64,000 nt of DNA. Source: Moringa oleifera (taxonomy: Eukaryota; Streptophyta; Magnoliopsida; Brassicales; Moringaceae). The stretch spans positions 6,628,897 to 6,692,896 of the forward strand of contig JAJFZO010000168.1 in NCBI GenBank assembly GCA_021397835.1, in the 5' to 3' direction. The notes under the pieces were generated by a model that saw only the letters and a list, made by a program, of their open reading frames with translations, made no database searches and had not been told where the DNA came from. A program made the translations under genes and the position numbers. Positions 20,201 through 64,000 of the stretch are shown piece by piece. The first letter of the stretch is position 1; each line of letters begins with the position of its first letter.

Positions 20201-20498
20201 TCGAGTAAGCTCCAGAAATTAATGAAAAAGCACTTGAAGACATTCATTTGAAGAACAAAGGATGATAAAAGAGAAGTTGATCTACAGCAAAGCCAGGGTC
20301 TCCCTTCTGAAAACTAAGGTGTTTCAATGGAGTGGAAAGTTGTTCTTGATGATGAGCTAGCCCGCATTTTTCTGTTCTTTCAGTGGGCAAAGAAGTGGTG
20401 ATCCGACTCTGTTTCAACCTGGTAATCTGTGAGATTTCTTTAGGAGAATTTGGTGCAGGCAGACAGCAAGAGAAGTTTAATATAACAGAAGTGGCCAT
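17267..20498 (-). CDS. TPS-g terpene synthase, intact seven-exon gene (copy B)
   Basis: Exons on the minus strand: 20498-20286, 20185-19921, 18983-18611, 18511-18293, 18162-18024, 17904-17656 and 17554-17267. All junctions are GT-AG with matching phases, and the sum is 1746 nt, 581 residues, with no internal stop. A Ser/Thr-rich N-terminus suggests a plastid transit peptide. The RRX8W motif of typical monoterpene synthases is absent, and [22 protein letters not shown] and the overall layout point to the TPS-g class, which makes acyclic products such as linalool, nerolidol or geraniol. Class I metal-binding motifs are present: DDIFD at 336-340 and DDLGSAKDE at 480-488, the latter across the exon 6/7 junction. 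The likely reaction is Mg-dependent ionisation of GPP or FPP; the product cannot be read from sequence. Intron 2 carries an AT-rich fold-back insertion. Confidence 0.9.
19240..19735. repeat. AT-rich fold-back (MITE-like) element in TPS intron 2
   Basis: The two ends of this about 0.5-kb segment are imperfect inverted repeats: TTATAAATCGAGCTTTAATC... near 19284 pairs with the complement of ...GATTAATATTCTATTTATCA near 19670. The middle is A/T homopolymer-rich. No target-site duplication could be defined. Similar AT-rich segments with the phrase ATTTTTTGAGTA(C/T)TA occur near 2935 and 19460. Confidence 0.5.
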
Positions 20499-39618: not shown

Positions 39619-40082
39619 CTTAATATCATTCACTGCAACAATTCTTCGGCTCTGGGATGACTTGGGGAGTGCCAAGGTATCTTGATCAGGAGTTAAACAT
39701 CAGATGTTATATAGGTAGATATATTAATTGTAAGAGCCAATTGTTGATTGAAATCCATTTGGTTAAATCTGTCTCAGGATGAAAATCAAGATGGGTATGA
39801 TGGGTCTTATCTAGAATACTACATGAAGGAACATGGCTCCACAGTTGATGATGCAAGAAAGCAAGTTATCAGTCTGATTTCAGATGCCTGGAAAGGCCTG
39901 AATCAGGAGTGCCTGTACCCAAATCCATTTTCAGCATCTCTTACCAGGGCATGTCTTAATCTTGCAAGAATGGTGCTTTTGATGTATAGTTATGATGATA
40001 CCATGGCCTTCCAAGTCTTGAGGAGTACATGAAGTCTCTTCTCTATGAAAATGCATCCAGTAAAGTATCTCAAAGATGGAAG
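39619..40082 (+). pseudogene. TPS-g terpene synthase 3' fragment (copy C)
   Basis: Homology to the intact terpene synthase starts abruptly at 39619, inside its exon 6, and covers the exon 6 end (to 39676), the whole last intron (39677-39775) and exon 7 to the stop region. The intron differs from copy B by only about two bases, so this is a recent DNA-level copy, not a retrocopy. One base is missing near 40000 (GATGATACCATGG against GATGACAACCATGG), which shifts the frame before the natural end. The fragment lies about 20 kb from its source and in the opposite orientation. It has no catalytic DDxxD exon and cannot be functional. Confidence 0.92.
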
Positions 40083-42276
40083 ACTGTCATTGTTCCATTC
40101 TGTCACAGAATAACCCTACGCTGTAATAAATATGGAGAAGTAGGTAAACTGTTCCAGTGTACATAGATAAAAATCTCAAGTTACATGTATCATTAGCTGA
40201 ATATTACTTGTCTTTTGCTATGTCTCCTATGCTGCATGTGGTCTTTAATATAGACTATCCTCCAGATATAAGATGATATGAGTGGCTCATTAAATCCTCT
40301 CAACCAGTTGGTATTTATTTTAGAATAAGAGATTTTCTAATCATATGAGTGAGTACTATAACTTTTTTTAAAAAACAATTTTTTTGATAATTTATTATAT
40401 TAATATGATAAAAAATAAACAAAAAAATTTAATATAAAAACATATATTTCATTTTTGAAATAACATTTGAAACCTATATAGTGGTCAATTACTTAATCCT
40501 TGATGTTGTAACTCCAATAACTTTAGCTGAAAGACCACAAGTACCATGTCGGCTACATAATTAAGCTATAACTGACATGACGAGACAGCAGCATACAGAG
40601 CCAGATCAAAGGTAGTCTAAGTCCATTGAAGCTTTATATGCAACGAGACTCATCAAACACTAGTCCTACATTACATTACAGGCCATCTCAATTGTTTTTT
40701 TTTTAATATTTATATTTTATATATTTTACTTATTATTTATATAATATATTAACTATCATTATATCAATAATAATTTATATTTTTGCATTGGTAAACATAA
40801 TATTATCTTTTTTTTTACATGATGTATTATAATTTTAGCTCATTTTATCGTGAACTTGAATTGTATAATGGATATCAATGAATGATATTTGATTTTCATA
40901 CCAACAAAAATATGATGTTGCCTCCACTTATAGATATTCTCTTTCAAATCATCTTAATGAAATCTTTTTATGATTTTAAAATTTATCTATAAATTATATT
41001 TAAAATCATTTAATAAATTAAATTTTAAAAATAAAAATTTATGAACTTATATCAAAATAAACTGTAAATAATAACCACTAAAATATATTTTTTAATAATT
41101 AATTTTATAATTATTATGATATATTTATCAATAAAGATAATAATAAAATTCATGTAATACATATGAAGATAATTGTCATATATAATTAATAATTGTTATT
41201 AAAGATTTGCTTTGTTGCAGTGTGCTTGAAAAAATAATTTGTTTCAACATCTAAGTCACAATTTTTAGCTCGCATGGTAGAGAGTTATCTAAATCGTAAT
41301 TGGTTAGACCTTGACTTTTCAATACTTCCAATTCAATATGATGGGGCTTGACTTTTCAATATTTTTAATTTAAACAATGATTTAGTTAATAATGATGGTG
41401 CTATTATTTTAATTATAATATTTAATTTGTAAATATGTGATTAATTTTGAAAAATATTTATGAATAATTTTTAATAATTTAAAATATATTTAAAATAAAA
41501 ATTATATAAAATTTTGAATTATATTTTATGTTATTAAATAAACATTACTATTTAAAAAATGGTAAACTAAATCTTAACCTATTAATTTGGATCAAATTAG
41601 ATCTTGGTTGAAATAACTTTAAAAAAATCAAGAGAATTTTTGTGGTTCAAATGCTTAAAAATTGAGTAAAAAAATTCTACATTCCATTTCAAGTTTATTT
41701 TTAAAATTTAAATAAATTCAACTCACAAGTTATTTATTATGATTTTTTTTTAAAATGTTAACATTGCAATTTTTTTAAAAATATATTTTTAATTCTTAAA
41801 TTTTTTTTGTTATTATGATAATTTGTGATGGTATTATTTTTTTATGTATAAAAAAATTTAAAATAAAATTCATCGCTATTAGAAAATTTGAAAATAACAA
41901 CAAAAATTAACAACATAGATAATTAATCATTAGATAATAATAACAGATTAATGATAAAATTGTTATAAAATTAAAATTTTAACTTAACGATTAATTAATA
42001 ATAGATTAATGATAAAATTTAGTGAAAAATAAAAATATTTTATTTAAATTTATTTTTAATTTATTAATTTTATTTTTATTTTAAAATATTATTGAAAAAT
42101 CTCAATATTGATTGCTAGCCAACCAGTAACATGCACTTGGTGCTGGGGCTAATGGCTGCCTAACGACCAAAGCAGTGTCAATCGCAAGGCAACCATAATT
42201 GCTAGGGTTAACTGACAGTTTAGCGACCACCTAGGCTTGGTTGTGAAGCAGTCATGGCTGTTAGGCTTCTTTGCAG
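40083..42276. other. AT-rich intergenic region left of the hAT element
   Basis: Strongly AT-rich from 40350 on, without a gene. The last 170 bases (42105-42276) are more GC-rich and share short phrases such as TAGCGACCA/TAGCGACTGAC with the DNA on the other side of the hAT element, which suggests the hAT inserted into an older repeat. Confidence 0.5.
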
Positions 42277-45200
42277 TAGGATGAGCAAAATTCAGTTAAA
42301 ATTAAAAAAATTAAAAAAAAATCGAATTAATTTTAGTTTATTTAATTTGATTTTTTCAGTTTTTGATTATAAAGTAATTTAAAAATTGATTTTCTTGATT
42401 TTTTGGTTAATTTTAGTTAATTTTTTTTAAAATCGAATTAACCAAAAAATCAATTTTTTATTTTAATAATTAATTAATTTTATTAATTAATAAATAATTA
42501 ATATTTATTTTCTTTCAATTACTCTTCAAAAGGGTAAATTGGGATTGGGCAATCGAGAAAACAAATAAACAGTCTTCTTCCTTTTATTTCAATTTGAGTA
42601 TTTGACAAACCCTAACCTAACCCGTCACCGACTCACCATGCCCATCTATCTTTCGAAGTTTCGAGAATCAAAATAGTCGTAGCCATCGACACCACGCACG
42701 TATTCGGTATTGGTAATCAATTAAACCGCTCAATCCCTTAGGCTTGATCTTCTTTCTCTTCAATTTGAATCATCCCGAGAGTAACATCGCAGCCACACCA
42801 CAGCCACACTCACACCACGCACGTATTCGGTAATTGATCAAACCACTCAATTGCTTAGATATGATTTTCTTTCTCTCCAATTGGAATCTTTTCGATAGTA
42901 ACGTCGCAGCCACAACGCAGCCACACTTCCTCTTTTTTTTTTCTTTCAACTTAAGAAGCCGTAACCGTAACTTAATCCATGCACCGTGTGGTCGTGTTCA
43001 TTTATCTTGGAGAATCAGCAGCATCACAGCGACACCCACGCCACCCATACGCATTCGGTGTTTCCTTATGCCAAATCTTCTTTCTTTTCAATTTTAATTA
43101 TTTCAATAGTAGCATGCATTATCTTGCTCTTTAATCTTTCAAATTTTCAAATCCTAATTTGTAACAATTACATTTAAAATTAAAAATTAGATCATTTTTA
43201 TGGATTCCCTTTTTGTATTTGGGTAAGTATTATAAATTGTTTTATGTATTAACACTTTTTCTTTATATATGTGGTATGTATTAGCTATGACATGTAAGGT
43301 ATAATAATTCCAGTATTGAAAATTAAAGAGTTAATTTTTTTAATTCATTTTATTTTTGCTTTATATTTTTTGTTTGAATCTTTCTTGATATAATTTAAAG
43401 TTGTTAATTATGTTTTTTTGTAGTAATTCATAATCATATTTTGAAAGGTAGTGGTATTAACTATTACTATTGCAATGAATTTTTGTGTAACGTAGTATTA
43501 CTATTAAATGTTTTAGAATTTTATCTAACTATTGAAAAGTATTATTACTAACTATTTTTAATTGTTATTTATTTCAGAAATTAAAAGATGTTAACTAGAA
43601 GTAATGATGTAAATCCTGTGCCTAATGTCACATAACCAGATTCAATTCATCCATCATCTGTAAGTTCTAAATTGAAGAGGAAAGTGTTTAAGCCCAAATC
43701 AAAAGTTTGGGAACACTTCATTAAATTTTTTGATGAACAAGGTGAGCATAAAGGTAGATGTAATTATTGTGATAGAGAGTTTTTTGCTGACTCTAGAAGA
43801 AATGGAACAACTGCATTGAAAGCTCATATGGGTACTTGTAAGAGGAGAACAAATGTTAGTGTTGATTCTAGTCAAACTGAATTGGTTTTTGAATCTAGGA
43901 GAGATGGATCTTTAGGTAGTTGAAAGTTCAATCAAGATGCCATTAGAAAGGGTATAGCTGAGATGATCATTGGATGAATTACCTTTCAAATTTGTGGATG
44001 GTAAAAGTTTTCGGCGTTGCATGTCACTTGCATGTCCTAAGTTTCGTATGCCTTCATGATGGACTATAGCTAGAGATTGTTATCAGCTTTATAATGATGA
44101 AAAAGTTAAACTGAAACAGTTTTTAAGATCATCCAGTGTAAGAGTATCTCTCACCACAGACACATGGACTTCAGTGCAAAGAATTAATTATTTGTGTCTT
44201 ACAGCTCATTTTGTTGATAAAGATTGGAAATTGAACAAAAAACTATTAAACTTTTGTCCTATTTCTAGTCATAGAGGTGAGGCCATCGGAAAAGTCATTG
44301 AGAAATGTTTGCGTGATTGGGGGATTGATCAGATTTTTACTGTTACAGTCGATAATGCTAGTTCTAATGATGTTGCAATCTCATACTTGAAGAAAAGATT
44401 GAATAATTTAAGAACTTGCATTCAAGAAGGAAAATATCTTTATTTAAGATGCATTGCGCACATTCTTAATCTCATTGTTACAAATGGATTAAAAGAAATG
44501 AATGAGTCAATTGCACGAGTTAGAGAGGTGGTTAAATATGTGAAACAATCACCTGCAAGGTTGGCCAAATTTAAAGAATGTGCTTTAGTTGAAAAAATTG
44601 AAAGCAAAAGTTTATTGTGTTTGGATGTTAGCACTAGGTGAAACTCCACTTACTTGATGTTGGATGCAGCTCAAAAATTTGAGAAGGCTTTTGAGGTTTT
44701 TGATGATATTGATCCACATTATAGAAATGAGTTGATAATAGGAGATGGGTTGCCTGAAAAAAAGGATTGGGAAACTATTAGGAGGTTTTATCTTTTCTTG
44801 CAACAATTTTATGAACTAACAATCAAAGTTTTAGGTTCTTCATATGTCACCTTTAATAGTTTTCTTGATGATATTTGTAATGTTTATACTACTTTGCGTA
44901 ATTGGGAAACACATTCTGATATTGAGTTAAATGCAATGGAAAAAAAAATGAAAGATAAGTTTGATAAGTATTGGAGAAATGTGAAGAAGATGAATATACT
45001 ACTTTATGTTGCTTCTATTCTTGATCTTAGAAAAAAGCTTGAGTTTGTCAACTTTTACTTTTTGGAAATGTATGATATGGAACAACCTTCAATGATGACT
45101 AGTAATATGAAAAAAGCAGTTGAAGAGTTGTTTGATGGGTACAAAAGAAGTTTGCAACCTCAACCTCAACATGAACAAGTTGGTGAAAGCAGTCAAGTAA

Positions 45201-46641
45201 GCCAAATTGCAGAGGGAAATGAATTAAGATTGAAAAAGGAGAGACAAGTTCTTTTATCTAAGTTCAAGAGATATAAGAAAGAGATCGAAAAAGAAGAAAA
45301 TAAATCAGAATTGGATAGATTTTTAAGTGAAGAGGATGCAAAAGATGATGATAACTTTGATATTCTTGATTGGTGGAAACTTAATAGTCATAGGTTTCCT
45401 ATTCTTTCCCATATGGCTTGTGATGTATTGGCAACTCCTATATCTACGGTTGCTTCTGAATCTGCTTTTAGCACCGACGGACGTGTACTTGATACATATA
45501 GGAGTTCATTAACTCCTAAACTTGTACAAGCCCTTATTTGTGCTCAAGATTGGTTACGTGGATCTCCATGTTTCGATGCCATTGAAGAAGACTTGGTAGA
45601 GCTTGAGAAACTTGATATGGATAATTATTTTGTTTATTTGATTATTTTATATTTTTTAATTACTAATCTTTATTGTTTTCTTAATACCAAATTTGATTAT
45701 GTGTTTATAGATTTGTCAAAAATTACATTGGATGCTACAATTGATTAGTGTAAAAGTGCATTGTTATTTCAAAGTAATTTCTTTTATCACTATTAGTTTC
45801 ACATCTTATATAGTTGAGATTTTGGTGGTGGATTAATTTTCATTTTTTGATTTTTTTAATTGATTGATTATCATAAAAGAGAAATATTAGTTATTAAGAT
45901 GTTATATGTGAAGGCTAAATATTGTTTGCATATAATCTTATCATATAATAGTTTTGCAGTATCATATCAACTCATTTAGGAGGAGCTTCATTTGGATAAG
46001 TTTTTGTCATATTAATATATAAGAATGCACTTATTTCTTTTTTGACATTTTTATATTTGTTTTTTTTTTTTTGCTTTTCAGGCATCGGATTAGTTGAAAA
46101 AAACTTTTTGAAAGAACTAAAAGCAAAATAGAAAAAACAAGGATTGCAATTCCAATAAAATGTTCCTTTTGATGTTGTTAATTTGATAAGTACTAATGTA
46201 TCATATACCAGTTATATTTTGATAATTTTTTTTTTATGATTAAAAGTTTTTATATTCTAAAAGTTGTTATTGATGTATAAAAAATTTTAATTTTTATATA
46301 TAAAAGATGCCGATTTTCATGTAAGTATATATAAAAATATTATTAGAGTAAAGTTTAATTATATTTTTCATCTATATGAACAGATTGTTAATGATATATC
46401 ATATATATTTAATTTGTAAATTGTTATTAAGATTTAAAATAGTTTAAAAGTAAAAAATATAAAATTTAAACCTAAATAAATTTTCGGTTTATTCGGTAAC
46501 CGATTGAAAAAAATTCGGTTTGATTAATTCAGTTATCTTTTAAATACGGTCGGTTTCACTTAAATTATAAAAAAATTTGGTTAATTTGGTTTTTAAAATT
46601 TTCAAACCGAATGAACCAAAATAATCGAATGCTCACTCCTA
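42277..46641 (+). mobile_element. hAT DNA transposon, defective (left palindrome arm)
   Basis: About 4.37 kb. The ends carry short inverted repeats: TAGGATGAGCAAAATTC at 42277 and, on the opposite strand from 46641, TAGGAGTGAGCATTCG. The flanking octamers CTTTGCAG (42269-42276) and CCTAGCAG (46642-46649) match at 6 of 8 positions, as expected for an aged 8-bp hAT target duplication. Subterminal regions are AT-rich with repeated AAATTCGGTT-type phrases on both sides. The transposase remnant is listed separately. The internal sequence is mirrored in the right arm. Confidence 0.85.
43672..45748 (+). pseudogene. hAT transposase remnant (BED finger, hAT dimerisation domain)
   Basis: The N-terminal piece (43672-43923) is a BED zinc finger with CNYCDREF and the following HMGTC, as in RICESLEEPER/ZBED-type proteins. 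The central RNase H-like region covers 44174-44641, with DTWTSVQR before LTAHFVDKDW, then TVDNASSND and CIAHILNLIV. The C-terminal piece (44654-45748) ends with the hAT dimerisation domain: FDILDWWKLN, FPILSHMACDVL, STVASESAFSTDGR. Breaks: stop at 43921, one extra base near 43973, stop at 44057-44059 and TGA at 44639-44641. The same breaks occur in the right-arm copy, so they are older than the duplication. It cannot make transposase. Confidence 0.9.
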
Positions 46642-47925
46642 CCTAGCAGACTAGCGACTGACATTGCATTACTTACTGGTTATCATAGCTAGTGACCATC
46701 ACCTCCGACTATCGATAAGATCCTTTAAAACTAGACTGGATGCTCTGGTTTCTTTTCGTTTTCATGGGCACCGTTGGCCCTTCTCCCTCCCAAATTTCTC
46801 TTGCAATTCGACTCTCTTTTTCTTACTTTTTCTCGTCGACCATAGCTATCCTCTTTGCTTCTTTCCATTGTTCTCTGCCCCATTTTCTCTATCTTGAACG
46901 ATCATCTTCTCCTTCTCTCCGTGAGGCTACTGCTCTCTTCGCTTGATTGTTTTTACATGTAATTATAAAAATTTTGGTTAGTGATATATTAATGATTGGA
47001 AGATCCTCTTCACAAAGTATGCTCACACTAAAATAAAATTGGTTTTTAGAGGTAATTGTTTAGCAACCGTTGTGGTAATTACCGCTACATCTATTAGTAA
47101 AAATTCTTTTATCGTACCTTTAACATCAAATAACTACTAATAATAAATATACAATGATAATTGTAAACATTAGCCATTAAAATACATATATTTTTTTAAG
47201 TTATTATTTACTATTACTTTTAAAATAAATTTATAACTTTTTTAAAAATTTTAAATATCAAAATTTATATTAAATTAATTAAATGATTCAAGTATAATAA
47301 AATAGTATTTATTAAATCATACTTAAAACTAAGCATACATTTATAAAAATTAATAATGTAAATTAAAGTTAAACAGTTATTATATTTTAAAAATATTTTT
47401 ATTATTAAGGTATGGAATATAAAAATAAGAATATTGTTTTAATTTACTTGTCATATTTTTTAAAAAATATTAAATTTAATTTTAAAATAATTTTTTTATA
47501 ATGGAGTTTTTAAATTTTTTTAATTTGAAATATCACATTTAAAATGAAGTTGGCCGGAAAGAGCAAAAAAGTTGAATCTGATTGCATTCTTCCAGATTAT
47601 ACATTCAAAACATTTCAATGGCCATTAAAACTTTTTTATGTTGTAGTGTCCTCACTATACAAAATTGAAGGGACATACTTCACCCAATAATAACGACAAA
47701 GATAATGATTATTATTCCGTTAAATTTTTACAATTGTGAATGATATGCTAATTCAAAATTGAGCATTTAAACTGGTCTTATTTATGAAATTATTTCTTAA
47801 AAAATGTTACATCTCTCGTATGTACATTGGCTTGATGTAAAAGCAAGGGCCTTGGTTGAAATTTGTTCTATTACAATTTTATTTTTATATAATTCAATTT
47901 AGGTGGTTTATAATTATTTTAATAT

Positions 47926-47959
<34 letters not shown>

Positions 47960-49738
47960 CTTATAACACAATCTTATTAAAAATGAATTATAAATAATTA
48001 AATTAAATTTTTATGAGAATCAAATTAGTTAAATATTAATTGTTAGTGTATAGTAATTATATGTTAATAAATTTAGTTTATATTATATTAATTAGATAAT
48101 AATTTAATTAAATTATAATTTGAGATAAATAATTTAATTATATATTTTTTATAAAAATTAAATTAGTTAGACATTAATTATTAATGTAAATGTAATTTTA
48201 TATGTTAGTTAGATAATAGGTTAATTAGATTCTAATCTCACTTCTATCATTCAACTCTATTTTACAACTTATTTTATTCTGACTTACAATACCCTTTCAT
48301 TAAATAACAGGATAGCAACTGACTTATCAATATATATGCATAAGATAAGGATACCTGAAATTTTAAAGAGCAACGTCTTTAATTTCAACCACTCATTTTG
48401 TCGGTGAAATTCTCTCTTCAAGATATATATTAAAGATTCTCCACAGCGCCCTAAATGACACCAAAGGAAGCAACAGCTGTCCCTTGACTGATGACATTTA
48501 TGACAAAATCCAAGAAGGTTACCCTTTTTTGTTTTCTCCACAATTCTCCATCGGATTGCATTAATGAGCCATTACAGAGACAACCACTTCCACAATCTCC
48601 ACACCCATTTCCGTCCAAAAAGCTGAAGCTCTATGTTGTCCAGAAAAATAAAGCTATGATTTCGTGTCTTTTTCACGTTTAAAACATCGGACTTACGAAG
48701 AATTGCCTTCCTGTCCCACGTGTTCAATGCCCAATGTTTACACACCACCGGTACTTATAGGAGCAGACTCTTAATTGTTCCTCCAAAAACCAGCTAAGCA
48801 AAGATAGAGACGGAGACACGTATAGGAAGAAGACAAATATTTTTAATTACTTAATATATAGTTATAATGATTTTAATTTATTATCAACCATATACAATCC
48901 TTCATGCTGCCATCCATATATAGCATATTTCTTCCAAACCAAATCAAAGGCTACAGATTTCGTTAGTTTTGATGAACGTATAAATCTAACATTACAAAGA
49001 AAAATTTGAACAAATAATATTTACAGTACAGAATGACGTTTTATAATAATACCATGATTCATTAAATCCTTAACTTGTGAAGAGATATATAATGGACCAC
49101 CATATATAATTTAGCACTAACTTATTCTGATAACGACAATGCGCAAATTTTCAATGTTAGGACCAGTTACAAGAGGGAGAAAGTTTCTCCAAAGAGAAGA
49201 GGAAAGTAATTAGGGCACTGTACTTCATTTTCGTAGCTTATGTAAAATTCTTATGAAGTTGGAATCTGTAGGTGCATTTTGCAACTTGAAAGGGAAATTC
49301 TTGATTGCCATCATCTTTTTTTTTTTTTTTCCTTTTTTTCCAGGGAAGAGAAAGGGTACTTGGTAGCTTTTAGACTTAGAAGGTACAGCTTTTGATTACT
49401 GCATGGAATTCTTATAAAGTTGATGCTGTTAACATGCAGGGTTTGTACCCTCTTTACTCATTTCACTTCTAAAAGATTTCTTTGACACTAATCATGACAG
49501 CGGGGGAAAAAAAAAAAAGAAGGAAAATTATTTTCTTCGTTCCCAGTTGATTTTTGTCATACTCAAAATTTGTCATGTAGTGTTTTTTTTCTATCCAAAG
49601 GGCATGATTTTTCAGAGACCCCTGGGTTGGGTGTACATGGATGCTTAATTATAGGAGAAGTGTCAGTGAAAATAAAAAGCAAATATATATATTGATAGAG
49701 ACATGGATATTTAGAATACTGAATGATATTATGTTCTG
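46642..49738. other. AT-rich spacer between hAT and copia elements (left arm)
   Basis: No supported gene. It includes a pyrimidine-rich stretch at 46760-46930, a (TA)n repeat at 47925-47960, poly-T at 49316-49330 and poly-A at 49507-49518. Small open frames are kept in both arms only because the DNA is duplicated. Confidence 0.6.
47925..47960. repeat. (TA)n microsatellite, left arm
   Basis: TA run with one C interruption. It differs in length by about three bases from its mirror at 58762-58796, one of the few length differences between the arms. Confidence 0.85.
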
Positions 49739-49774
49739 TGTTGAATATGTGTGAAGATAATTTTATCCACAAAA

Positions 49775-49909
49775 GGGTATATATTTATCTGAAAAATATA
49801 TATATTTATCTGAGAGGGCATATACTTATCTGAAAGGATATATATGCTTATCTGAAAAGGAATATACTCATCCAAAAGAGTATATACTTATCAAAAAAGA
49901 TATCTTGAG
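49775..49909 (+). promoter_or_regulatory. U3 repeat block of the copia LTR
   Basis: Six tandem, imperfect copies of a roughly 21-base unit with core ATATACTTATCTGAAAA. It lies directly upstream of the TATA box, where copia LTRs such as Tnt1 and Tto1 carry repeated enhancer boxes. The enhancer role is inference. Confidence 0.6.
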
Positions 49910-49946
49910 ATTTTCACACATCTATTTTTTTGGCCTTGGGCTCTAC

Positions 49947-49954
49947 TATATAAA
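49947..49954 (+). promoter_or_regulatory. TATA box of left copia LTR
   Basis: TATATAAA followed by GGGGAG, about 300 bases before the LTR end and just after the U3 repeats. Confidence 0.7.
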
Positions 49955-50249
49955 GGGGAGACTTCTACCCATCTAAACATAGAGAGTGAGTAAGAGTCCT
50001 AGGGTTTTATTCTAGTAGAGTGAGGGCTAGGGAAACAGTTATCTCTCTTATAATCTATTTTCATAGTGAAAAGGTTTCCTGCAGTGGCTGCAAAGTGGAT
50101 GTAACTCTCAATTGAGGATGAACCACTATAAATCTTGTGTTCCTGTGGTTGTTTACTTTCTTCTTACTTTTATTATTGTTGCTTTCAGGTTATAGGGATT
50201 TGATATTTGATCCATCAACTAAGGATCTGGTTGTCAAATTTCCAACAAC

Positions 50250-50261
50250 TGGTATCAAAGC
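50250..50261 (+). other. Primer-binding site (initiator Met tRNA type), left arm
   Basis: TGGTATCAAAGC, two bases after the LTR. It differs by one base from the usual plant Met-initiator complement. Confidence 0.8.
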
Positions 50262-50284
50262 TTCGGGTTTTGAGATTGAAAGCA

Positions 50285-53200
50285 ATGGGTAGCGAAGAAA
50301 ACTCATCACATGGGATCATCAAGTTCGATGGTACAGATTATGCATTCTGGAGAATGCAAATCGAGGATTATCTGTATGGGAAAAAGCTGCATGAACCACT
50401 TTTGGGTCAAAAGCCTGAAAAGATTTTAGAAAGCGATTGGGATCTCCTTGATCGACAGGTGCTGGGAGTTATTCGGCTGACACTGTCAAAGAACATTGCT
50501 CACAACGTGGCGAAGGAGAAAACAACTGCAAGTCTGATGAAGGTGCTATCTGACATGTATGAAAAACCTTCAGCAAACAACAAGGCTTTTCTCATGAAGA
50601 AGCTATTCCACTTGAAAATGGGTGAAGGTAATTCTGTGGCAACTCATCTTAATGAGTTTAATACAATAGTTAATCAGTTATCTTCTATTGAGATTGACTT
50701 TGATGATAAGGTACGTGCCTTGATACTATTGGCATCGTTGCCAAATAGTTGGGAGCCCATGAGAGCAGCGATGAGCAATTCTGTTGGGAGTTCAAAATTG
50801 AACTTCAATGATGTTCGTTATCGAGTTCTTGCAGAAGAGATTCGGAGGATCGATTCAGGTGAAACATCAGTTGCAAATTCTGCCTTAAATGTTGAAAATA
50901 GGGGAAAAGAAAGTGACAAAAACTCTGATCGCAATAAGGGCAAATCTAAGTCAAAGAATGGAAGAAGCAGATCTAGATCTGGAAAAAATATGGAATGCTG
51001 GAACTGTAAGAAAAAGGATCACATGAAGAAAGACTGTCACTTACTGAAGAAAAAAGGTGAGCATAAAGATGACATTGCAAATGCTGTAACAGATGAGGTA
51101 GATGATGCTTTACTTTTGGCTATTGATAATCCTCTTGAGTCTTGGGTTTTAGATTCTGGGGCGTCTTTTCATACCACTGCATATGGCAAAATAATAGAAA
51201 ATTATGTTGCTGAAAACTTTGGGAAGGTTTATCTTGCTGATGGCGAACCTTTGAATATTATTGGTATGAGTGATGTTAAATTGAAGATGCCAAATAAGAA
51301 TATCTGGAAGATTCAAAAGGTGAGACATGTGCCAAAGTTGATGAGAAATCTAATTTCTGTTGGACAGCTTGATAGTGAAGGGCATAGGGTGACTTTCAAT
51401 GATAATGCTTGGAAAGTTACCAAAGGTGCCATGGTTGTTGCTCAAGGAAGCAAAACTGGAACTCTTTATATGACTTCAAGTTGCAAAGACACAGTGGCTG
51501 CTGTTGACACTGGTATGAACTCTGACCTATGGCATTGCAGACTTGGGCATATGAGTGAAAAGGGAATGAAGGTCATGGTGGCAAATGGTAATTTGTCGGA
51601 TTTAAAATCTGTAGAGCACAAGTTGTGTGAAAGCTGAATCCTTGGCAAACAGAAAAGGGTCAGCTTCTCCAAAACAGGAAAGCAGTTGAAGCAGCAAAAA
51701 CTAGAGTTAGTTCATACAGATGTATGGGGGCCTTCGACTGTGACGTCTCTTGGGGGATCTAGCTACTATGTGACTTTCATTGATGACTCAACCAGAAAGG
51801 TATGGATTTATTTTCTAAAGAATAAATCTGATATATTTGATGCTTTCAGGAAATGAAAAGCCATGGTTGAGAATGAAATTAATCTTAAAGTTAAGTGTTT
51901 GAGATCTGATAATGGTGGAGAATATGGGGATTTCAAACAGTTTTGTGCTGATAATGGGATCAAGATGGAGAAGACTACTCCAGGTACACCTCGGCAGAAT
52001 GGTGTTGCAGAAAGGATGAACAAAACACTGAATGAACCTGCAAGGAGCATGAGAATGCATGCATGGTTGCCCAAGGTATTTTGGGCAGATGCAGTTAACA
52101 CTGCACCCAATTTAATCAATAGGGGTCCTTCAGTTCCTTTGGATTGCAGAATACCCGAGGAGGTTTGGAGTGGCAAAAAGGTAAACCTGTCTTTTCTAAG
52201 AATATTTGGTTGCCTATCATATATACATATCGATGCTGCTAGTGGCAAACTTGATCCTAAATCAAAAAAATATTTTTTCATTGGATATGGTGACAATGAG
52301 TTTGGTTATTGTTTTTGGGATAGCCAAAACAGGAAGATCATTAGGAGCAGGGATGTAATCTTCAATGAGCAAGTTCTGTACAAGGATAGTTTGGGCAAGA
52401 GTTCAGAAGTAACAGATTCTGAGGTAAAAAGGCCTGAAGTGATCCACTTGAGAGACATTCCAGTGAATCAGTTGCAACAGAATACTGAGAAAGTTGAAGA
52501 TGACATTGCTGAGCAAAATCAGGAAAGTATGGCTCCAGAGGTAAATCCAACCACTCCTGTGACAGAAGTGAGAAGATCTTCCAGGATTGTGAGACCACCA
52601 CAGAGATTTTCACCATCTCTAAACTACATCTTGTTGACTGATAGGGGTAAACCAGAGAGTTTTGATGAAGCTTTGCAGGGTGATAAATCAATCAAGTGGG
52701 AGTTAGCCATGAAAGATGAGATGAATTCTCTCATGAGTAATCAAACATGGGAGTTTGCAGAACTACCACAAGGAAAAAGGGCCTTGCAGAACAAATGGGT
52801 TTACCGGATAAAAGAAGAACATGATGGCAACAAGCGGTATAAAGCAAGATTAGTAGTTAAAGGCTTTCAACAAAAGGAAGGTATTGACTACACAGAGATT
52901 TTCTCCCCAGTGGTTAAGTTGACTACAATCAGAATAATGCTTGGGTTAGTGGCTCAGGAAGATTTGCATCTGCAGCAAATGGATGTAAAAACAGCTTTTC
53001 TTCATGGTGACTTGGAGGAAGAAATTTACATGAAACAACCACAAGGATTTGAAGTCAAAGGTAAGGAGAAAATGGTATGCAAACTTATGAAAAGTTTGTA
53101 TGGGTTAAAACAAGCTCCAAGACAATGGTACAAGAAGTTTGACAACTTCATGGGTGACAATGGTTTCTTAAAGTGCCAGGCAGACTATTGTTGTTATGTT

Positions 53201-53349
53201 AACAAGTATGATAACTCTTACATTATATTGCTACTGTATGTTGATGATATGTTAATTGCTGGAGCTAATTTGCATGAGATAGAGAAATTAAAGAGTAAGC
53301 TTTCAAAGAAGTTTGCTATGAAGGATTTGGGTTCCGCCAAACAAATCCT
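50285..53349 (+). pseudogene. Copia gag-pol remnant (left arm)
   Basis: The Met at 50285 opens gag. A CCHC zinc knuckle lies at 50996-51037 with Asp in place of the usual Gly before His. The protease region has WVLDSGASFH near 51142. The integrase zinc region (HCRLGH) ends in a TGA at 51635-51637, where a zinc-binding Cys is expected. Another TGA lies at 51855-51857. From there a long frame covers the integrase core (DNGGEYG, TPRQNGVAERMN) and reverse transcriptase (RYKARLVVKGF, QMDVKTAFLHGDLEEEIYM, SLYGLKQAPRQWY, YVDDM). The frame runs over the palindrome centre to 53497, adding a tail read from the antisense of reverse transcriptase. Two residues present in the right-arm copy after DNGGEY are missing. 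Non-functional. Confidence 0.9.
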
Positions 53350-53365
53350 GGTGATTCTCATCCCA
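53350..53365. other. Palindrome centre, 16-base spacer
   Basis: Flanked by ACAAATCCT and AGGATTTGT. Read on the minus strand, the spacer is the natural continuation of the copia reverse transcriptase (LGMRIT codons), so the right arm holds slightly more of the element than the left. The spacer itself begins and ends with CC/GG bases that could have given microhomology. Confidence 0.9.
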
Positions 53366-56300
53366 AGGATTTGTTTGGCGGAACCCAAATCCTTCATAGC
53401 AAACTTCTTTGAAAGCTTACTCTTTAATTTCTCTATCTCATGCAAATTAGCTCCAGCAATTAACATATCATCAACATACAGTAGCAATATAATGTAAGAG
53501 TTATCATACTTCTTAACATAACAACAATAGTCTGCCTGGCACCTTAAGAAACCATTGTCACCCATGAAGTTGTCAAACTTCTTGTACCACTGTCTTGGAG
53601 CTTGTTTTAACCCATACAAACTTTTCATAAGTTTGCATATCATTTTCTCCTTACCTTTGACTTCAAATCCTTGTGGCTGTTTCATGTAAATTTCTTCCTC
53701 CAAGTCACCATGAAGAAAAACTGTTTTTACATCCATTTGCTGCAGATGCAAATCTTCCTGAGCCACTAACCCAAGCACTATTCTGATTGTAGTCAACTTA
53801 ATCACTGGGGAGAAAATCTCTGTGTAGTCAATACCTTCCTTTTGATGAAAGCCTTTAACTACTAACCTTGCTTTATACCGCTTGTTGCCATCATGTTCTT
53901 CTTTTATCCGGTAAACCCATTTGTTCTGCAAGGCCCTTTTTCCTTGTGGTAGTTCTGCAAACTCCCATGTTTGATTACTCATGAGAGAATTCATCTCATC
54001 TTTCATGGCTAACTCCCACTTGATTGATTTATCACCCTACAAAGCTTCATCAAAACTCTCTGGTTCACCCCTATCAGTCAACAAGATGTAGTTCAGAGAT
54101 GGTAAAAATCTCTGTGGTGGTCTCACAATCCTGGAAGATCTTCTCACTTCTGTCACAGGAGTGGTTGGATTTACCTCTAGAGCCATACTTTCCTGATTTT
54201 GCTCAGCAATGTCATCTTCAACTTTCTCAGTATTCTGTTGCAATTGATTCACTGGAATGTCTCTCAAGTGGATCACTTCAAGCCTTTTTACCTCAAAATC
54301 TGTTACTTCTGAACTCTTGCCCAAACTATCCTTGTACAGAACTTGCTCATTGAAGATTACATCCCTGCTCCTAATGATCTTCCTGGATTGGCTATCCCAA
54401 AAATGATAACCAAACTCATTGTCACCATATCCAATGAAAAAACATTTTTTTGATTTAGGATCAAGTTTGCCTCTAGCAGCATCGATATGTATATATGACA
54501 GGTAACCAAATATTCTTAGAAAAGACAGGTTTACCTTTTTGCCACTCCAAACCTCCTCGAGTATTCTGCAATCCAAAGGAACTGAAGGACCCCTATTGAT
54601 TAAATAGGGTGCAGTGTTAACTGCATCTGCCCAAAATACCTTGGGCAACCCTGCATGCATTCTCATGCTCCTTGCACGTTCATTCAGTGTTTTGTTCATC
54701 CTTTCTGCAACACCATTCTGCTGAGGTGTACCTGGAGTAGTCTTCTCCATCTTGATCCCATTATCAGCACAAAACTATTTGAAATCCCCATCATTGTATT
54801 CTCCACCATTATCAAATCTCAAACACTTAACTTTAAGATTAGTTTCATTCTCAACCATGGCTTTTCATTTCCTGAAAGCATCAAATACATCAGATTTATT
54901 CTTTAGAAAATAAATCCATACTTTTCTGGTTGAGTCATCAATGAAAGTCACATAGTAGCTAGATCCCCCAAGAGATGTCACAGTCGAAGGCCCCCATACA
55001 TCTGTATGAACTAACTCTAGTTTTTGCTGCTTCAACTGCTTTCCTGTTTTGGAGAAGCTGACCCTTTTCTGTTTGCCAAGGATTCAGCTTTCACACAACT
55101 TGTGCTCTACAAATTTTAAATCCGGCAAATTACCATTTGCCACCATGACCTTCATTCCCTTTTCACTCATATGCCCAAGTCTGCAATGCCATAGGTCAGA
55201 GTTCATGCCAGTGTCAACAGCAGCCATTGTGTCTTTGCAACTTGAAGTCATATAGAGAGTTCCAGTTTTGCTTCCTTGAGCAACAACCATGGCACCTTTG
55301 GTAACTTTTCAAGCATTATCATTGAAAGTCACCCTATGCCCTTCACTATCAAGCTGTCCAACAGAAATTAGATTTCTCATCAACTTTGGCACATGTCTCA
55401 CCTTTTGAATCTTTCAGATATTCTTATTTGGCATCTTCAATTTAACATCACTCATACCAATAATATTCAAAGGTTCTCCATCAGCAAGATAAACCTTCCC
55501 AAAGTTTTCAGTAACATAATTTTCTATTATTTTGCCATATGCAGTGGTATGAAAAGACGCCCCAGAATCTAAAACCCAAGACTGAAGAGGATTATCAATA
55601 GCCAAAAGTAAAGCATCATCTACCTCATCTGTTACAGCATTTGCAGTGTCATCTTTATGCTCACCTTTTTTCTTCAGTAAGTGACAGTCTTTTTTCATGT
55701 GACCCTTTTTCTTACAGTTCCAGCATTCCATATTTTTTTCAGATCTAGATTTGCTTCTTCCATTCTTTGACTTAGATTTGCCCTTATTGCGATCAGAGTT
55801 TTTGTCACTTTCTCTTCCCTTGTTTTCAACATTTAGGGCAGAATTTGTAACTGATGTTTCACCTGAATCGATCCTCCGAATCTCTTCTGCAAGAACTCGA
55901 TCACGAACATCATTGAAGTTCAATTTTGAACTCCCAACAGAATTGCTCATCGCTGCTCTCATGGGCTCCCAACTATTTGGCAACGATGCCAATAGTATCA
56001 AGGCACGTACCTTATCATCAAAGTTAATCTCAATAGAAGATAACTGATTAACTATTGTATTAAACTCATTAAGATGAGTTGCCACAGAATTACCTTCACC
56101 CATTTTCAAGTGGAATAGCTTCTTCATGAGAAAAGCCTTGTTGTTTGCTGAAGGTTTTTCATACATGTCAGATAGCACCTTCATCAGACTTGCAGTTGTT
56201 TTCTCCTTCGCCACGTTGTGAGCAATGTTCTTTGACAGTGTCAGCCGAATAACTCCCAGCACCTGTCGATCAAGGAGATCCCAATCGCTTTCTAAAATCT

Positions 56301-56436
56301 TTTCAGGCTTTTGACCCAAAAGTGGTTCATGCAGCTTTTTCCCATACAGATAATCCTCGATTTGCATTCTCCAGAATGCATAATCTGTACCATCGAACTT
56401 GATGATCCCATGTGATGAGTTTTCTTCGCTACCCAT
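53366..56436 (-). pseudogene. Copia gag-pol remnant (right arm)
   Basis: Keeps a canonical CCHC knuckle (Gly before His), unlike the left copy. It shares the two TGA breaks of the left copy (mirror of 51637 and 51857). It has extra stops: TGA near 55411 and 55307 at Trp positions and TAG near 54773 at a Gln position, all explained by C-to-T or G-to-A changes. The reverse transcriptase frame (start of open part 54006) crosses the centre and ends at 53218 with the same antisense tail as the left copy. Non-functional. Confidence 0.9.
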
Positions 56437-56473
56437 TGCTTTCAATCTCAAAACCCGAAGCTTTGATACCAGT

Positions 56474-56982
56474 TGTTGGAAATTTGACAACCAGATCCTT
56501 AGTTGATGGATCAAATATCAAATCCCTATAACCTGAAAGCAACAATAATAAAAGTAAGAAGAAAGTAAACAACCACAGGAACACAAGATTTATAGTGGTT
56601 CATCCTCAATTGAGAGTTACATCCACTTTGCAGCCACTGCAGGAAACCTTTTCACTATGAAAATAGATTATAAGAGAGATAACTGTTTCCCTAGCCCTCA
56701 CTCTACTAGAATAAAACCCTAGGACTCTTACTCACTCTCTATGTTTAGATGGGTAGAAGTCTCCCCTTTATATAGTAGAGCCCAAGGCCAAAAAAATAGA
56801 TGTGTGAAAATCTCAAGATATCTTTTTTGATAAGTATATACTCTTTTGGATGAGTATATTCCTTTTCAGATAAGCATATATATCCTTTCAGATAAGTATA
56901 TGCCCTCTCAGATAAATATATATATTTTTCAGATAAATATATACCCTTTTGTGGATAAAATTATCTTCACACATATTCAACA
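56474..56982 (-). repeat. Copia 5' LTR (right arm)
   Basis: Mirror of the left LTR with the same TGTTG/CAACA ends, U3 repeats (56812-56946) and TATA box (56767-56774 on the minus strand). The primer-binding site is at 56460-56471. Confidence 0.88.
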
Positions 56983-58760
56983 CAGAACATAATATCATTC
57001 AGTATTCTAAATATCCATGTCTCTATCAATATATATATTTGCTTTTTATTTTCACTGACACTTCTCCTATAATTAAGCATCCATGTACACCCAACCCAGG
57101 GGTCTCTGAAAAATCATGCCCTTTGGATAGAAAAAAAACACTACATGACAAATTTTGAGTATGACAAAAATCAACTGGGAACGAAGAAAATAATTTTCCT
57201 TCTTTTTTTTTTTTCCCCGCTGTCATGATTAGTGTCAAAGAAATCTTTTAGAAGTGAAATGAGTAAAGAGGGTACAAACCCTGCATGTTAACAGCATCAA
57301 CTTTATAAGAATTCCATGCAGTAATCAAAAGCTGTACCTTCTAAGTCTAAAAGCTACCAAGTACCCTTTCTCTTCCCTGGAAAAAAAGGAAAAAAAAAAA
57401 AAGATGATGGCAATCAAGAATTTCCCTTTCAAGTTGCAAAATGCACCTACAGATTCCAACTTCATAAGAATTTTACATAAGCTACGAAAATGAAGTACAG
57501 TGCCCTAATTACTTTCCTCTTCTCTTTGGAGAAACTTTCTCCCTCTTGTAACTGGTCCTAACATTGAAAATTTGCGCATTGTCGTTATCAGAATAAGTTA
57601 GTGCTAAATTATATATGGTGGTCCATTATATATCTCTTCACAAGTTAAGGATTTAATGAATCATGGTATTATTATAAAACGTCATTCTGTACTGTAAATA
57701 TTATTTGTTCAAATTTTTCTTTGTAATGTTAGATTTATACGTTCATCAAAACTAACGAAATCTGTAGCCTTTGATTTGGTTTGGAAGAAATATGCTACAT
57801 ATGGATGGCAGCATGAAGGATTGTATATGGTTGATAATAAATTAAAATCATTATAACTATATATTAAGTAATTAAAAATATTTGTCTTCTTCCTATACGT
57901 GTCTCCGTCTCTATCTTTGCTTAGCTGGTTTTTGGAGGAACAATTAAGAGTCTGCTCCTATAAGTACCGGTGGTGTGTAAACATTGGGCATTGAACACGT
58001 GGGACAGGAAGGCAATTCTTCGTAAGTCCGATGTTTTAAACGTGAAAAAGACACGAAATCATAGCTTTATTTTTCTGGACAACATAGAGCTTCAGCTTTT
58101 TGGACGGAAATGGGTGTGGAGATTGTGGAAGTGGTTGTCTCTGTAATGGCTCATTAATGCAATCCGATGGAGAATTGTGGAGAAAACAAAAAAGGGTAAC
58201 CTTCTTGGATTTTGTCATAAATGTCATCAGTCAAGGGACAGCTGTTGCTTCCTTTGGTGTCATTTAGGGCGCTGTGGAGAATCTTTAATATATATCTTGA
58301 AGAGAGAATTTCACCGACAAAATGAGTGGTTGAAATTAAAGACGTTGCTCTTTAAAATTTCAGGTATCCTTATCTTATGCATATATATTGATAAGTCAGT
58401 TGCTATCCTGTTATTTAATGAAAGGGTATTGTAAGTCAGAATAAAATAAGTTGTAAAATAGAGTTGAATGATAGAAGTGAGATTAGAATCTAATTAACCT
58501 ATTATCTAACTAACATATAAAATTACATTTACATTAATAATTAATGTCTAACTAATTTAATTTTTATAAAAAATATATAATTAAATTATTTATCTCAAAT
58601 TATAATTTAATTAAATTATTATCTAATTAATATAATATAAACTAAATTTATTAACATATAATTACTATACACTAACAATTAATATTTAACTAATTTGATT
58701 CTCATAAAAATTTAATTTAATTATTTATAATTCATTTTTAATAAGATTGTGTTATAAGTA

Positions 58761-58795
<35 letters not shown>

Positions 58796-60079
58796 ATATT
58801 AAAATAATTATAAACCACCTAAATTGAATTATATAAAAATAAAATTGTAATAGAACAAATTTCAACCAAGGCCCTTGCTTTTACATCAAGCCAATGTACA
58901 TACGAGAGATGTAACATTTTTTAAGAAATAATTTCATAAATAAGACCAGTTTAAATGCTCAATTTTGAATTAGCATATCATTCACAATTGTAAAAATTTA
59001 ACGGAATAATAATCATTATCTTTGTCGTTATTATTGGGTGAAGTATGTCCCTTCAATTTTGTATAGTGAGGACACTACAACATAAAAAAGTTTTAATGGC
59101 CATTGAAATGTTTTGAATGTATAATCTGGAAGAATGCAATCAGATTCAACTTTTTTGCTCTTTCCGGCCAACTTCATTTTAAATGTGATATTTCAAATTA
59201 AAAAAATTTAAAAACTCCATTATAAAAAAATTATTTTAAAATTAAATTTAATATTTTTTAAAAAATATGACAAGTAAATTAAAACAATATTCTTATTTTT
59301 ATATTCCATACCTTAATAATAAAAATATTTTTAAAATATAATAACTGTTTAACTTTAATTTACATTATTAATTTTTATAAATGTATGCTTAGTTTTAAGT
59401 ATGATTTAATAAATACTATTTTATTATACTTGAATCATTTAATTAATTTAATATAAATTTTGATATTTAAAATTTTTAAAAAAGTTATAAATTTATTTTA
59501 AAAGTAATAGTAAATAATAACTTAAAAAAATATATGTATTTTAATGGCTAATGTTTACAATTATCATTGTATATTTATTATTAGTAGTTATTTGATGTTA
59601 AAGGTACGATAAAAGAATTTTTACTAATAGATGTAGCGGTAATTACCACAACGGTTGCTAAACAATTACCTCTAAAAACCAATTTTATTTTAGTGTGAGC
59701 ATACTTTGTGAAGAGGATCTTCCAATCATTAATATATCACTAACCAAAATTTTTATAATTACATGTAAAAACAATCAAGCGAAGAGAGCAGTAGCCTCAC
59801 GGAGAGAAGGAGAAGATGATCGTTCAAGATAGAGAAAATGGGGCAGAGAACAATGGAAAGAAGCAAAGAGGATAGCTATGGTCGACGAGAAAAAGTAAGA
59901 AAAAGAGAGTCGAATTGCAAGAGAAATTTGGGAGGGAGAAGGGCCAACGGTGCCCATGAAAACGAAAAGAAACCAGAGCATCCAGTCTAGTTTTAAAGGA
60001 TCTTATCGATAGTCGGAGGTGATGGTCACTAGCTATGATAACCAGTAAGTAATGCAATGTCAGTCGCTAGTCTGCTAGG
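56983..60079. other. AT-rich spacer between copia and hAT elements (right arm)
   Basis: Mirror of 46642-49738, with one substitution and small length changes in poly-A/T and TA runs (58762-58796). No gene. Confidence 0.6.
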
Positions 60080-63000
60080 TAGGAGTGAGCATTCGATTAT
60101 TTTGGTTCATTCGGTTTGAAAATTTTAAAAACCAAATTAACCAAATTTTTTTATAATTTAAGTGAAACCGACCGTATTTAAAAGATAACTGAATTAATCA
60201 AACCGAATTTTTTTCAATCGGTTACCGAATAAACCGAAAATTTATTTAGGTTTAAATTTTATATTTTTTACTTTTAAACTATTTTAAATCTTAATAACAA
60301 TTTACAAATTAAATATATATGATATATCATTAACAATCTGTTCATATAGATGAAAAATATAATTAAACTTTACTCTAATAACATTTTTATATATACTTAC
60401 ATGAAAATCGGCATCTTTTATATATAAAAATTAAAATTTTTTATACATCAATAACAACTTTTAGAATATAAAAACTTTTAATCATAAAAAAAAAATTATC
60501 AAAATATAACTGGTATATGATACATTAGTACTTATCAAATTAACAACATCAAAAGGAACATTTTATTGGAATTGCAATCCTTGTTTTTTCTATTTTGCTT
60601 TTAGTTCTTTCAAAAAGTTTTTTTCAACTAATCCGATGCCTGAAAAGCAAAAAAAAAAAAACAAATATAAAAATGTCAAAAAAGAAATAAGTGCATTCTT
60701 ATATATTAATATGACAAAAACTTATCCAAATGAAGCTCCTCCTAAATGAGTTGATATGATACTGCAAAACTATTATATGATAAGATTATATGCAAACAAT
60801 ATTTAGCCTTCACATATAACATCTTAATAACTAATATTTCTCTTTTATGATAATCAATCAATTAAAAAAATCAAAAAATGAAAATTAATCCACCACCAAA
60901 ATCTCAACTATATAAGATGTGAAACTAATAGTGATAAAAGAAATTACTTTGAAATAACAATGCACTTTTACACTAATCAATTGTAGCATCCAATGTAATT
61001 TTTGACAAATCTATAAACACATAATCAAATTTGGTATTAAGAAAACAATAAAGATTAGTAATTAAAAAATATAAAATAATCAAATAAACAAAATAATTAT
61101 CCATATCAAGTTTCTCAAGCTCTACCAAGTCTTCTTCAATGGCATCGAAACATGGAGATCCACGTAACCAATCTTGAGCACAAATAAGGGCTTGTACAAG
61201 TTTAGGAGTTAATGAACTCCTATATGTATCAAGTACACGTCCGTCGGTGCTAAAAGCAGATTCAGAAGCAACCGTAGATATAGGAGTTGCCAATACATCA
61301 CAAGCCATATGGGAAAGAATAGGAAACCTATGACTATTAAGTTTCCACCAATCAAGAATATCAAAGTTATCATCATCTTTTGCATCCTCTTCACTTAAAA
61401 ATCTATCCAATTCTGATTTATTTTCTTCTTTTTCGATCTCTTTCTTATATCTCTTGAACTTAGATAAAAGAACTTGTCTCTCCTTTTTCAATCTTAATTC
61501 ATTTCCCTCTGCAATTTGGCTTACTTGACTGCTTTCACCAACTTGTTCATGTTGAGGTTGAGGTTGCAAACTTCTTTTGTACCCATCAAACAACTCTTCA
61601 ACTGCTTTTTTCATATTACTAGTCATCATTGAAGGTTGTTCCATATCATACATTTCCAAAAAGTAAAAGTTGACAAACTCAAGCTTTTTTCTAAGATCAA
61701 GAATAGAAGCAACATAAAGTAGTATATTCATCTTCTTCACATTTCTCCAATACTTATCAAACTTATCTTTCATTTTTTTTTCCATTGCATTTAACTCAAT
61801 ATCAGAATGTGTTTCCCAATTACGCAAAGTAGTATAAACATTACAAATATCATCAAGAAAACTATTAAAGGTGACATATGAAGAACCTAAAACTTTGATT
61901 GTTAGTTCATAAAATTGTTGCAAGAAAAGATAAAACCTCCTAATAGTTTCCCAATCCTTTTTTTCAGGCAACCCATCTCCTATTATCAACTCATTTCTAT
62001 AATGTGGATCAATATCATCAAAAACCTCAAAAGCCTTCTCAAATTTTTGAGCTGCATCCAACATCAAGTAAGTGGAGTTTCACCTAGTGCTAACATCCAA
62101 ACACAATAAACTTTTGCTTTCAATTTTTTCAACTAAAGCACATTCTTTAAATTTGGCCAACCTTGCAGGTGATTGTTTCACATATTTAACCACCTCTCTA
62201 ACTCGTGCAATTGACTCATTCATTTCTTTTAATCCATTTGTAACAATGAGATTAAGAATGTGCGCAATGCATCTTAAATAAAGATATTTTCCTTCTTGAA
62301 TGCAAGTTCTTAAATTATTCAATCTTTTCTTCAAGTATGAGATTGCAACATCATTAGAACTAGCATTATCGACTGTAACAGTAAAAATCTGATCAATCCC
62401 CCAATCACGCAAACATTTCTCAATGACTTTTCCGATGGCCTCACCTCTATGACTAGAAATAGGACAAAAGTTTAATAGTTTTTTGTTCAATTTCCAATCT
62501 TTATCAACAAAATGAGCTGTAAGACACAAATAATTAATTCTTTGCACTGAAGTCCATGTGTCTGTGGTGAGAGATACTCTTACACTGGATGATCTTAAAA
62601 ACTGTTTCAGTTTAACTTTTTCATCATTATAAAGCTGATAACAATCTCTAGCTATAGTCCATCATGAAGGCATACGAAACTTAGGACATGCAAGTGACAT
62701 GCAACGCCGAAAACTTTTACCATCCACAAATTTGAAAGGTAATTCATCCAATGATCATCTCAGCTATACCCTTTCTAATGGCATCTTGATTGAACTTTCA
62801 ACTACCTAAAGATCCATCTCTCCTAGATTCAAAAACCAATTCAGTTTGACTAGAATCAACACTAACATTTGTTCTCCTCTTACAAGTACCCATATGAGCT
62901 TTCAATGCAGTTGTTCCATTTCTTCTAGAGTCAGCAAAAAACTCTCTATCACAATAATTACATCTACCTTTATGCTCACCTTGTTCATCAAAAAATTTAA

Positions 63001-64000
63001 TGAAGTGTTCCCAAACTTTTGATTTGGGCTTAAACACTTTCCTCTTCAATTTAGAACTTACAGATGATGGATGAATTGAATCTGGTTATGTGACATTAGG
63101 CACAGGATTTACATCATTACTTCTAGTTAACATCTTTTAATTTCTGAAATAAATAACAATTAAAAATAGTTAGTAATAATACTTTTCAATAGTTAGATAA
63201 AATTCTAAAACATTTAATAGTAATACTACGTTACACAAAAATTCATTGCAATAGTAATAGTTAATACCACTACCTTTCAAAATATGATTATGAATTACTA
63301 CAAAAAAACATAATTAACAACTTTAAATTATATCAAGAAAGATTCAAACAAAAAATATAAAGCAAAAATAAAATGAATTAAAAAAATTAACTCTTTAATT
63401 TTCAATACTGGAATTATTTTACCTTACATGTCATAGCTAATACATACCACATATATAAAGAAAAAGTGTTAATACATAAAACAATTTATAATACTTACCC
63501 AAATACAAAAAGGGAATCCATAAAAATGATCTAATTTTTAATTTTAAATGTAATTGTTACAAATTAGGATTTGAAAATTTGAAAGATTAAAGAGCAAGAT
63601 AATGCATGCTACTATTGAAATAATTAAAATTGAAAAGAAAGAAGATTTGGCATAAGGAAACACCGAATGCGTATGGGTGGCGTGGGTGTCGCTGTGATGC
63701 TGCTGATTCTCCAAGATAAATGAACACGACCACACGGTGCATGGATTAAGTTACGGTTACGGCTTCTTAAGTTGAAAGAAAAAAAAAAGAGGAAGTGTGG
63801 CTGCGTTGTGGCTGCGACGTTACTATCGAAAAGATTCCAATTGGAGAGAAAGAAAATCATATCTAAGCAATTGAGTGGTTTGATCAATTACCGAATACGT
63901 GCGTGGTGTGAGTGTGGCTGTGGTGTGGCTGCGATGTTACTCTCGGGATGATTCAAATTGAAGAGAAAGAAGATCAAGCCTAAGGGATTGAGCGGTTTAA
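60080..64000 (-). mobile_element. hAT DNA transposon, defective, cut by window end (right arm)
   Basis: The terminal inverted repeat TAGGAGTGAGCATTCG starts at 60080. The other end would fall near 64444, outside the window, if symmetry continues. The content equals the left copy. Confidence 0.85.
60973..63049 (-). pseudogene. hAT transposase remnant (right arm)
   Basis: Inverted copy of the remnant at 43672-45748: BED finger at 63049-62798, central RNase H-like region at 62547-62080 and C-terminal part with the dimerisation domain at 62067-60973. The translated pieces are identical to those of the left arm, including the same stops and frameshift. Since a dead gene is under no selection, identity of the two copies shows a recent duplication, ongoing homogenisation, or a technical copy. 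Confidence 0.9.

Follow-up and report, generated by a model that had tools for sequence, protein, structure and literature searches.

We propose that the near-perfect palindrome of more than 21 kb at the end of contig JAJFZO010000168.1 (here C533) of the Moringa oleifera assembly GCA_021397835.1 is in all likelihood an assembly artefact, that is, an erroneous contig tip. The palindrome is truly present in the assembly sequence; as a structure of the chromosome it is very probably not real. An assembly error is the most likely explanation because the palindrome lies at the contig end and because a second contig, C515, reads straight through the same locus. Three observations correspond to those expected of such an artefact: the palindrome reaches the last base of its contig, the locus is found unfolded elsewhere in the assembly (in C515), and a short spacer marks the strand switch. 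The window referred to throughout is the whole stretch that was analysed, 64,000 nucleotides of C533 (C533:6628897–6692896), from an assembly that totals 279.5 Mb and comprises 669 contigs.

The palindrome reaches the last base of the contig

Self-comparison of the window gave a single inverted match, spanning positions 42721–64000 at 99.27% identity, and a match of this size excludes chance. Detailed alignment of the arms places the left arm at 42721–53349 on the plus strand, as part of C533 proper, and the right arm at 53366–64000 on the minus strand, with a 16-base spacer at 53350–53365 between them. Both the near-perfect palindrome exceeding 21 kb and the 16-base spacer had been described in a first-pass annotation made from the letters of the window, and both are borne out here. 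That annotation also had the palindrome continuing beyond the window, and this part did not hold: a search for the outer end of the right arm past 64000 found that C533 is 6,692,896 bases long and that the final base of the window is its final base, so the right arm stops with the contig and no new sequence follows it.

The outer limit at 42721 is no biological boundary. It is the point at which the right arm exhausts the contig, and the sequence goes on in C515 to the counterpart of window position 17246.

A second contig carries the locus unfolded

Genome searches with three sections of the arm (outer, middle and inner) returned three near-identical places among those scored, namely both arms and C515; with the inner part, which belongs to an old copia element, the left arm showed 98% identity to the right arm and C515. 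The remaining scored matches were at most 97% identical, the long ones being transposon relatives. C515 crosses the fold point unbroken and goes on through the remainder of the copia element and the 3′ long terminal repeat (LTR) to further flanking sequence; at this locus it contains no palindrome. The segment of C533 at 53355–64000, within the spacer and right arm, corresponds to C515:1660841–1671480 on the plus strand of C515.

On its other side C515 tracks the window beyond 42721, matching window 48503–41221 at 99.92%. Compared letter by letter, the two contigs differ by two mismatches across 39619–41301 and by ten across 35198–39617; the match at 27240–35240 was seen as a search row only, given as 100%; and the last 10,000 bases of C515 equal window 27245–17246 with two mismatches, down to the final base. 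C533 and C515 therefore have a collinear end-to-end overlap of 36 kb (window 17246–53349), in which the end of C515 lies in reverse and its final base falls at 17246. Outside the copia element, 17 substitutions separate them in the 23.3 kb compared base by base (17246–27245 and 35198–48503). Their near-identity runs from 50695 to 17246, which is 25 kb past the end of the arm, and is thus not confined to the arms. One larger difference lies within the overlap: where C533 has a 3-base filler (39617–39619), C515 carries an additional 4.1 kb related to LTR elements (C515 piece L036, 83–4180). Ten of the 17 substitutions fall at 35788–39473, adjoining this indel site.

From these alignments we infer that the two contigs represent different haplotypes of a single locus. 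To the left of the overlap, a genome search with window 4500–12500 found no second copy or separate haplotig, returning two short weak matches only.

The right arm carries the alleles of C515

Outside the core of the copia element, the arms differ by three substitutions (43302, 46339 and 48920), exactly as had been counted before, and by three short indels (47957, 49316 and 49502). The core is different: between 50696–53349 on the plus strand of the left arm and 53366–56025 in the right arm there are 59 substitutions in about 2650 positions (2.2%), the majority of them G>A or C>T changes, together with one 6-base indel. The edge of this divergent block is sharp. There are no arm differences across 50248–50695, the first differences begin at 50696, and the outer 8 kb is nearly identical.

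The right arm equals C515 in all 2869 of 2869 bases outward from the fold, and hence at every one of the 59 core substitutions and at the 6-base indel. It also agrees with C515 at the four flanking sites (43302, 46339, 49316 and 49502) at which the left arm alone differs. The right arm and C515 part at position 48920 and within a microsatellite (47936–47957). In the microsatellite the two arms agree with each other in two letters that differ in C515, and each of the three sequences has its own length.

To place the two cores within their family, sites private to them were counted against 9–14 other copia copies up to about position 52200 and against 5–6 beyond it. Over 50248–53349 the left and right versions have 30 private sites in common, of which the core holds 25. 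Among the 30 is a stop codon at 51635; the other copies have TGC there, 14 of 14. A further 22 sites are private to the left version and 26 to the right; for 11 others, each of the two letters is present somewhere in the other copies. Because of the 30 shared private sites, the stop codon at 51635 among them, the two cores are evidently two versions of one dead insertion. Two other origins of the left version were rejected. A consensus of copia family members produced in polishing would not explain the 22 sites whose letters are absent from the compared copies and which look like real mutations, and an unrelated copia pulled in by a repeat mis-join would not share 30 private sites with the right version.

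The junction and a proposed fold-back mechanism

On the minus strand, the junction reads CCT, then TGGGATGAGAATCACC, then AGG, after which the sequence returns along the same strand; the unfolded counterpart in C515 reads ...CCTTGGGATGAGAATCACCAGGGAAAAG... Comparison of the two indicates that the strand turned at a place where a 3′ end in AGG could have paired with a CCT located 16 bases upstream. In window coordinates, CCT at 53347–53349 (plus strand) pairs with AGG at 53366–53368 as a microhomology at the strand switch, and the intervening spacer, which on the minus strand continues the copia sequence naturally, forms the fold-back loop. The junction thus fits a snap-back with AGG/CCT pairing and a 16-base loop. 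Among the scored places the full 76-base junction appears a single time, and the 39 others match one side of it only.

We consider it quite likely that the trigger was a long read or library molecule of the C515 haplotype folding back on itself. The 3′ end of such a read, ...ATCACCAGG, would pair three bases (AGG) with the CCT lying 16 bases upstream, and the paired end would then be extended along its own strand. As the first half of this fold-back read would overlap C533, the assembler may have taken the read as the last step of the contig, whereupon C533 would retrace the same locus to the end of the fold-back read. The consensus of the left arm would derive from C533's own reads, and that of the right arm from the fold-back read together with reads of the C515 haplotype; with different reads behind each arm, the arms would differ at haplotype sites. 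The folding of a read and the manner of consensus building are the steps that we infer. The chromosome would most likely hold the locus once per haplotype and in one orientation, with C533 leading through the entire copia and on into C515 in reverse.

Weighing the alternatives

The artefact favoured here had been one of the options in the first-pass annotation, which named a fold-back long read or joined haplotypes. The fold-back-like tip and the C515 alleles of the right arm support it, and both halves of that option may apply. The two biological options offered beside it, a recent fold-back duplication and a palindrome kept alike by arm-to-arm gene conversion, are unsupported because the second contig is unfolded at the locus and because the palindrome stops at the very base where its contig does.

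Other contig ends of the assembly were searched for comparable structures. Of 52 end pieces fetched, 23 other contig ends were used at 130 bases each; the other 29 were set aside as containing N, as telomere-like or of low complexity, as AT-rich, or were dropped for short queries. Among the best 40 places per search, a list that repeats tend to crowd, at least one of the 23 ends, that of C12, has an inverted counterpart 64 kb away within C12 itself. This inverted repeat (C12:8666924–8731225) reaches the contig end, and sampled pieces of it are identical at 600 of 600 and 597 of 600 bases. Its middle is tandem-repeat-like and not a clean palindrome, and it may have a different origin.

Several observations weigh against an artefact. 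The core difference of 2.2% compares with about 0.07% between the surrounding contigs, a contrast that an artefact leaves unaccounted for; its source could be a haplotype of greater divergence that is visible at this place alone, a sister copy missing from the assembly, or a consensus built unevenly. The assembled arms are consensus sequences and are of different haplotypes, as seen in the 59 core substitutions and the C515 type of the right arm. One folded molecule would put one haplotype on both arms, so the left-arm consensus would have to come from other reads. The other 22 of the 23 contig ends had no inverted self-match among their best 40 places, which argues that the fault is not general. 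Finally, the complete copia element of C515 (C515:1659401–1663701, piece L003) is flanked by TTCTG and CTCAG and so has no perfect 5-base target-site duplication, and its 3′ LTR gives a weak age contrast, with 11 private sites in 496 positions compared with 10 in one other copy. The imperfect duplication and the weak LTR contrast leave some room for an error in C515 at this place.

These last two points are also what speaks for C515 being a chimera that joins a real right arm to the 3′ half of another copia, in which case the palindrome would be real; internal mis-joins are plausible in a large copia family. The internal part of the element argues otherwise. Counted against five other copies, C515 has 65 private sites in 2859 positions before the fold point (at most 18 in any of the five) and 25 in 906 after it (at most 8), or 2.3% and 2.8%. 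Similarly high rates on both sides of the fold make the internal copia of C515 look like one old element, and we regard a chimeric C515 as extremely improbable. The specific case of a chimera with a young copia likewise gains no support from the internal part, and the 3′ LTR is a weak test of it. We give as little credence to an old palindrome whose outer arms were kept alike by gene conversion while the inner 2.65 kb went unconverted. The 2.2% divergence of that inner block, the near-identity of the outer 8 kb and the sharp edge at 50696 would suit it, but the right-arm core equals the non-palindromic C515 in 2869 of 2869 bases, the near-identity of C533 and C515 over 17246–50695 extends far past the palindrome, and the right side lacks the outer junction looked for in a gene-conversion palindrome, since the contig stops there.

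A true inverted duplication on one haplotype is also very unlikely, if less so. A break at the copia element would have been resealed by snap-back or fusion, giving a palindrome (or a dicentric fusion of homologues) on one homologue, with C515 representing the other. Fold-back repair in vivo would also leave the AGG/CCT microhomology and a short loop, and a fusion of homologues would yield arms carrying the alleles of two contigs. Yet the right arm stops exactly at the contig end with no new sequence, the junction occurs once in the assembly among the scored places, and the cores differ by 59 substitutions, whereas folding back between sister strands should leave them identical. An arm fused by inversion would be dicentric or unstable, which counts against it as well. 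Sister-chromatid fusion would give identical arms, and the arms beside this junction differ by 2.2%, contrary to what breakage–fusion–bridge cycles would leave. Marginally less probable again is that one homologue has a real fused inverted end at the copia element, a case in which a microhomology of three bases would have joined the homologues head to head, and sequence adjoining the fusion would have diverged far faster than its flanks.

If the erroneous tip is accepted, the final 10.6 kb of C533 should be left out of the genome sequence, and the copia and hAT pieces that recur in the right arm would not be real second copies. C533 and C515, the latter reversed, would then probably be united across their 36-kb overlap. 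Should reads, against expectation, bear the palindrome out, C533 would hold a large inverted structure of the kind that the first-pass annotation rightly called unusual.

Other features of the window and of contig ends

In the left arm, the old copia element begins with a 5′ LTR at 49739–50247 on the plus strand, followed by gag, pre-integrase and reverse transcriptase domains; an integrase-core match fell below the curated cut-off. Nearer the outer end of the arm, an open piece of hAT transposase (44654–45748, plus strand) has RNase-H-like and hAT dimerisation domains, and the open frame that precedes it (44174–44641) has no Pfam hit. Elsewhere in the window, neighbouring pentatricopeptide repeat (PPR) reading frames at 8613–9668 and 10660–11835 show about 68% DNA likeness over 769 aligned bases. 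Scans of the window for Rfam families and for tRNA genes each gave 0 hits.

Some contig ends match other contigs at 99–100% over 130 bases (C517/C30, C3/C129, C13/C667, C627/C626 and C49/C532); these could be unmerged joins, redundancy or repeats. Together with the inverted end of C12, they suggest that the contig ends of this assembly deserve a check. Four of the 32 contig sizes seen are multiples of 500 (C13, 6592500; C32, 6695000; C573, 3037500; C145, 62500), which would suggest scaffolding cut at fixed bins. Heptamers of the CCCGAAC type or degenerate relatives form the contig ends at C49:1–500 (L054) and at the end of C11 (L079); the first 500 bases of C49 also hold 28 CCCTAAA/TTTAGGG words, and the start of C25 (L067) is CCCTAAA.

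Comparison with known systems

Fold-back reads, thought to arise in library preparation, can tangle assembly graphs (PMC12870357), and palindromic reads from amplified DNA harm assembly (PMC6218980). Among the papers listed for inverted duplications at contig ends and for artefacts of haplotypes, none was more to the point than PMC12870357. Breakage–fusion–bridge fold-back inversions are treated in PMC10491683. In general terms such inversions resemble the C533 palindrome in fold-back geometry, short spacer and microhomology; unlike them, it has cores that differ. Mammalian sex-chromosome palindromes kept alike by gene conversion (PMC3723533, PMC8981503 and PMC6790999) have arms more than 99% alike, as here, but at this locus there is an unfolded copy, one arm lies at a contig end, and the near-identity runs past the palindrome in another contig. 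With the fold-back long-read artefacts of PMC12870357 and PMC6218980, the C533 tip shares a near-perfect inverted repeat, a short spacer and the availability of a non-palindromic version. It departs from them in being a contig tip and not a read, and in having arms with different alleles, so that the left arm would have been rebuilt from other reads.

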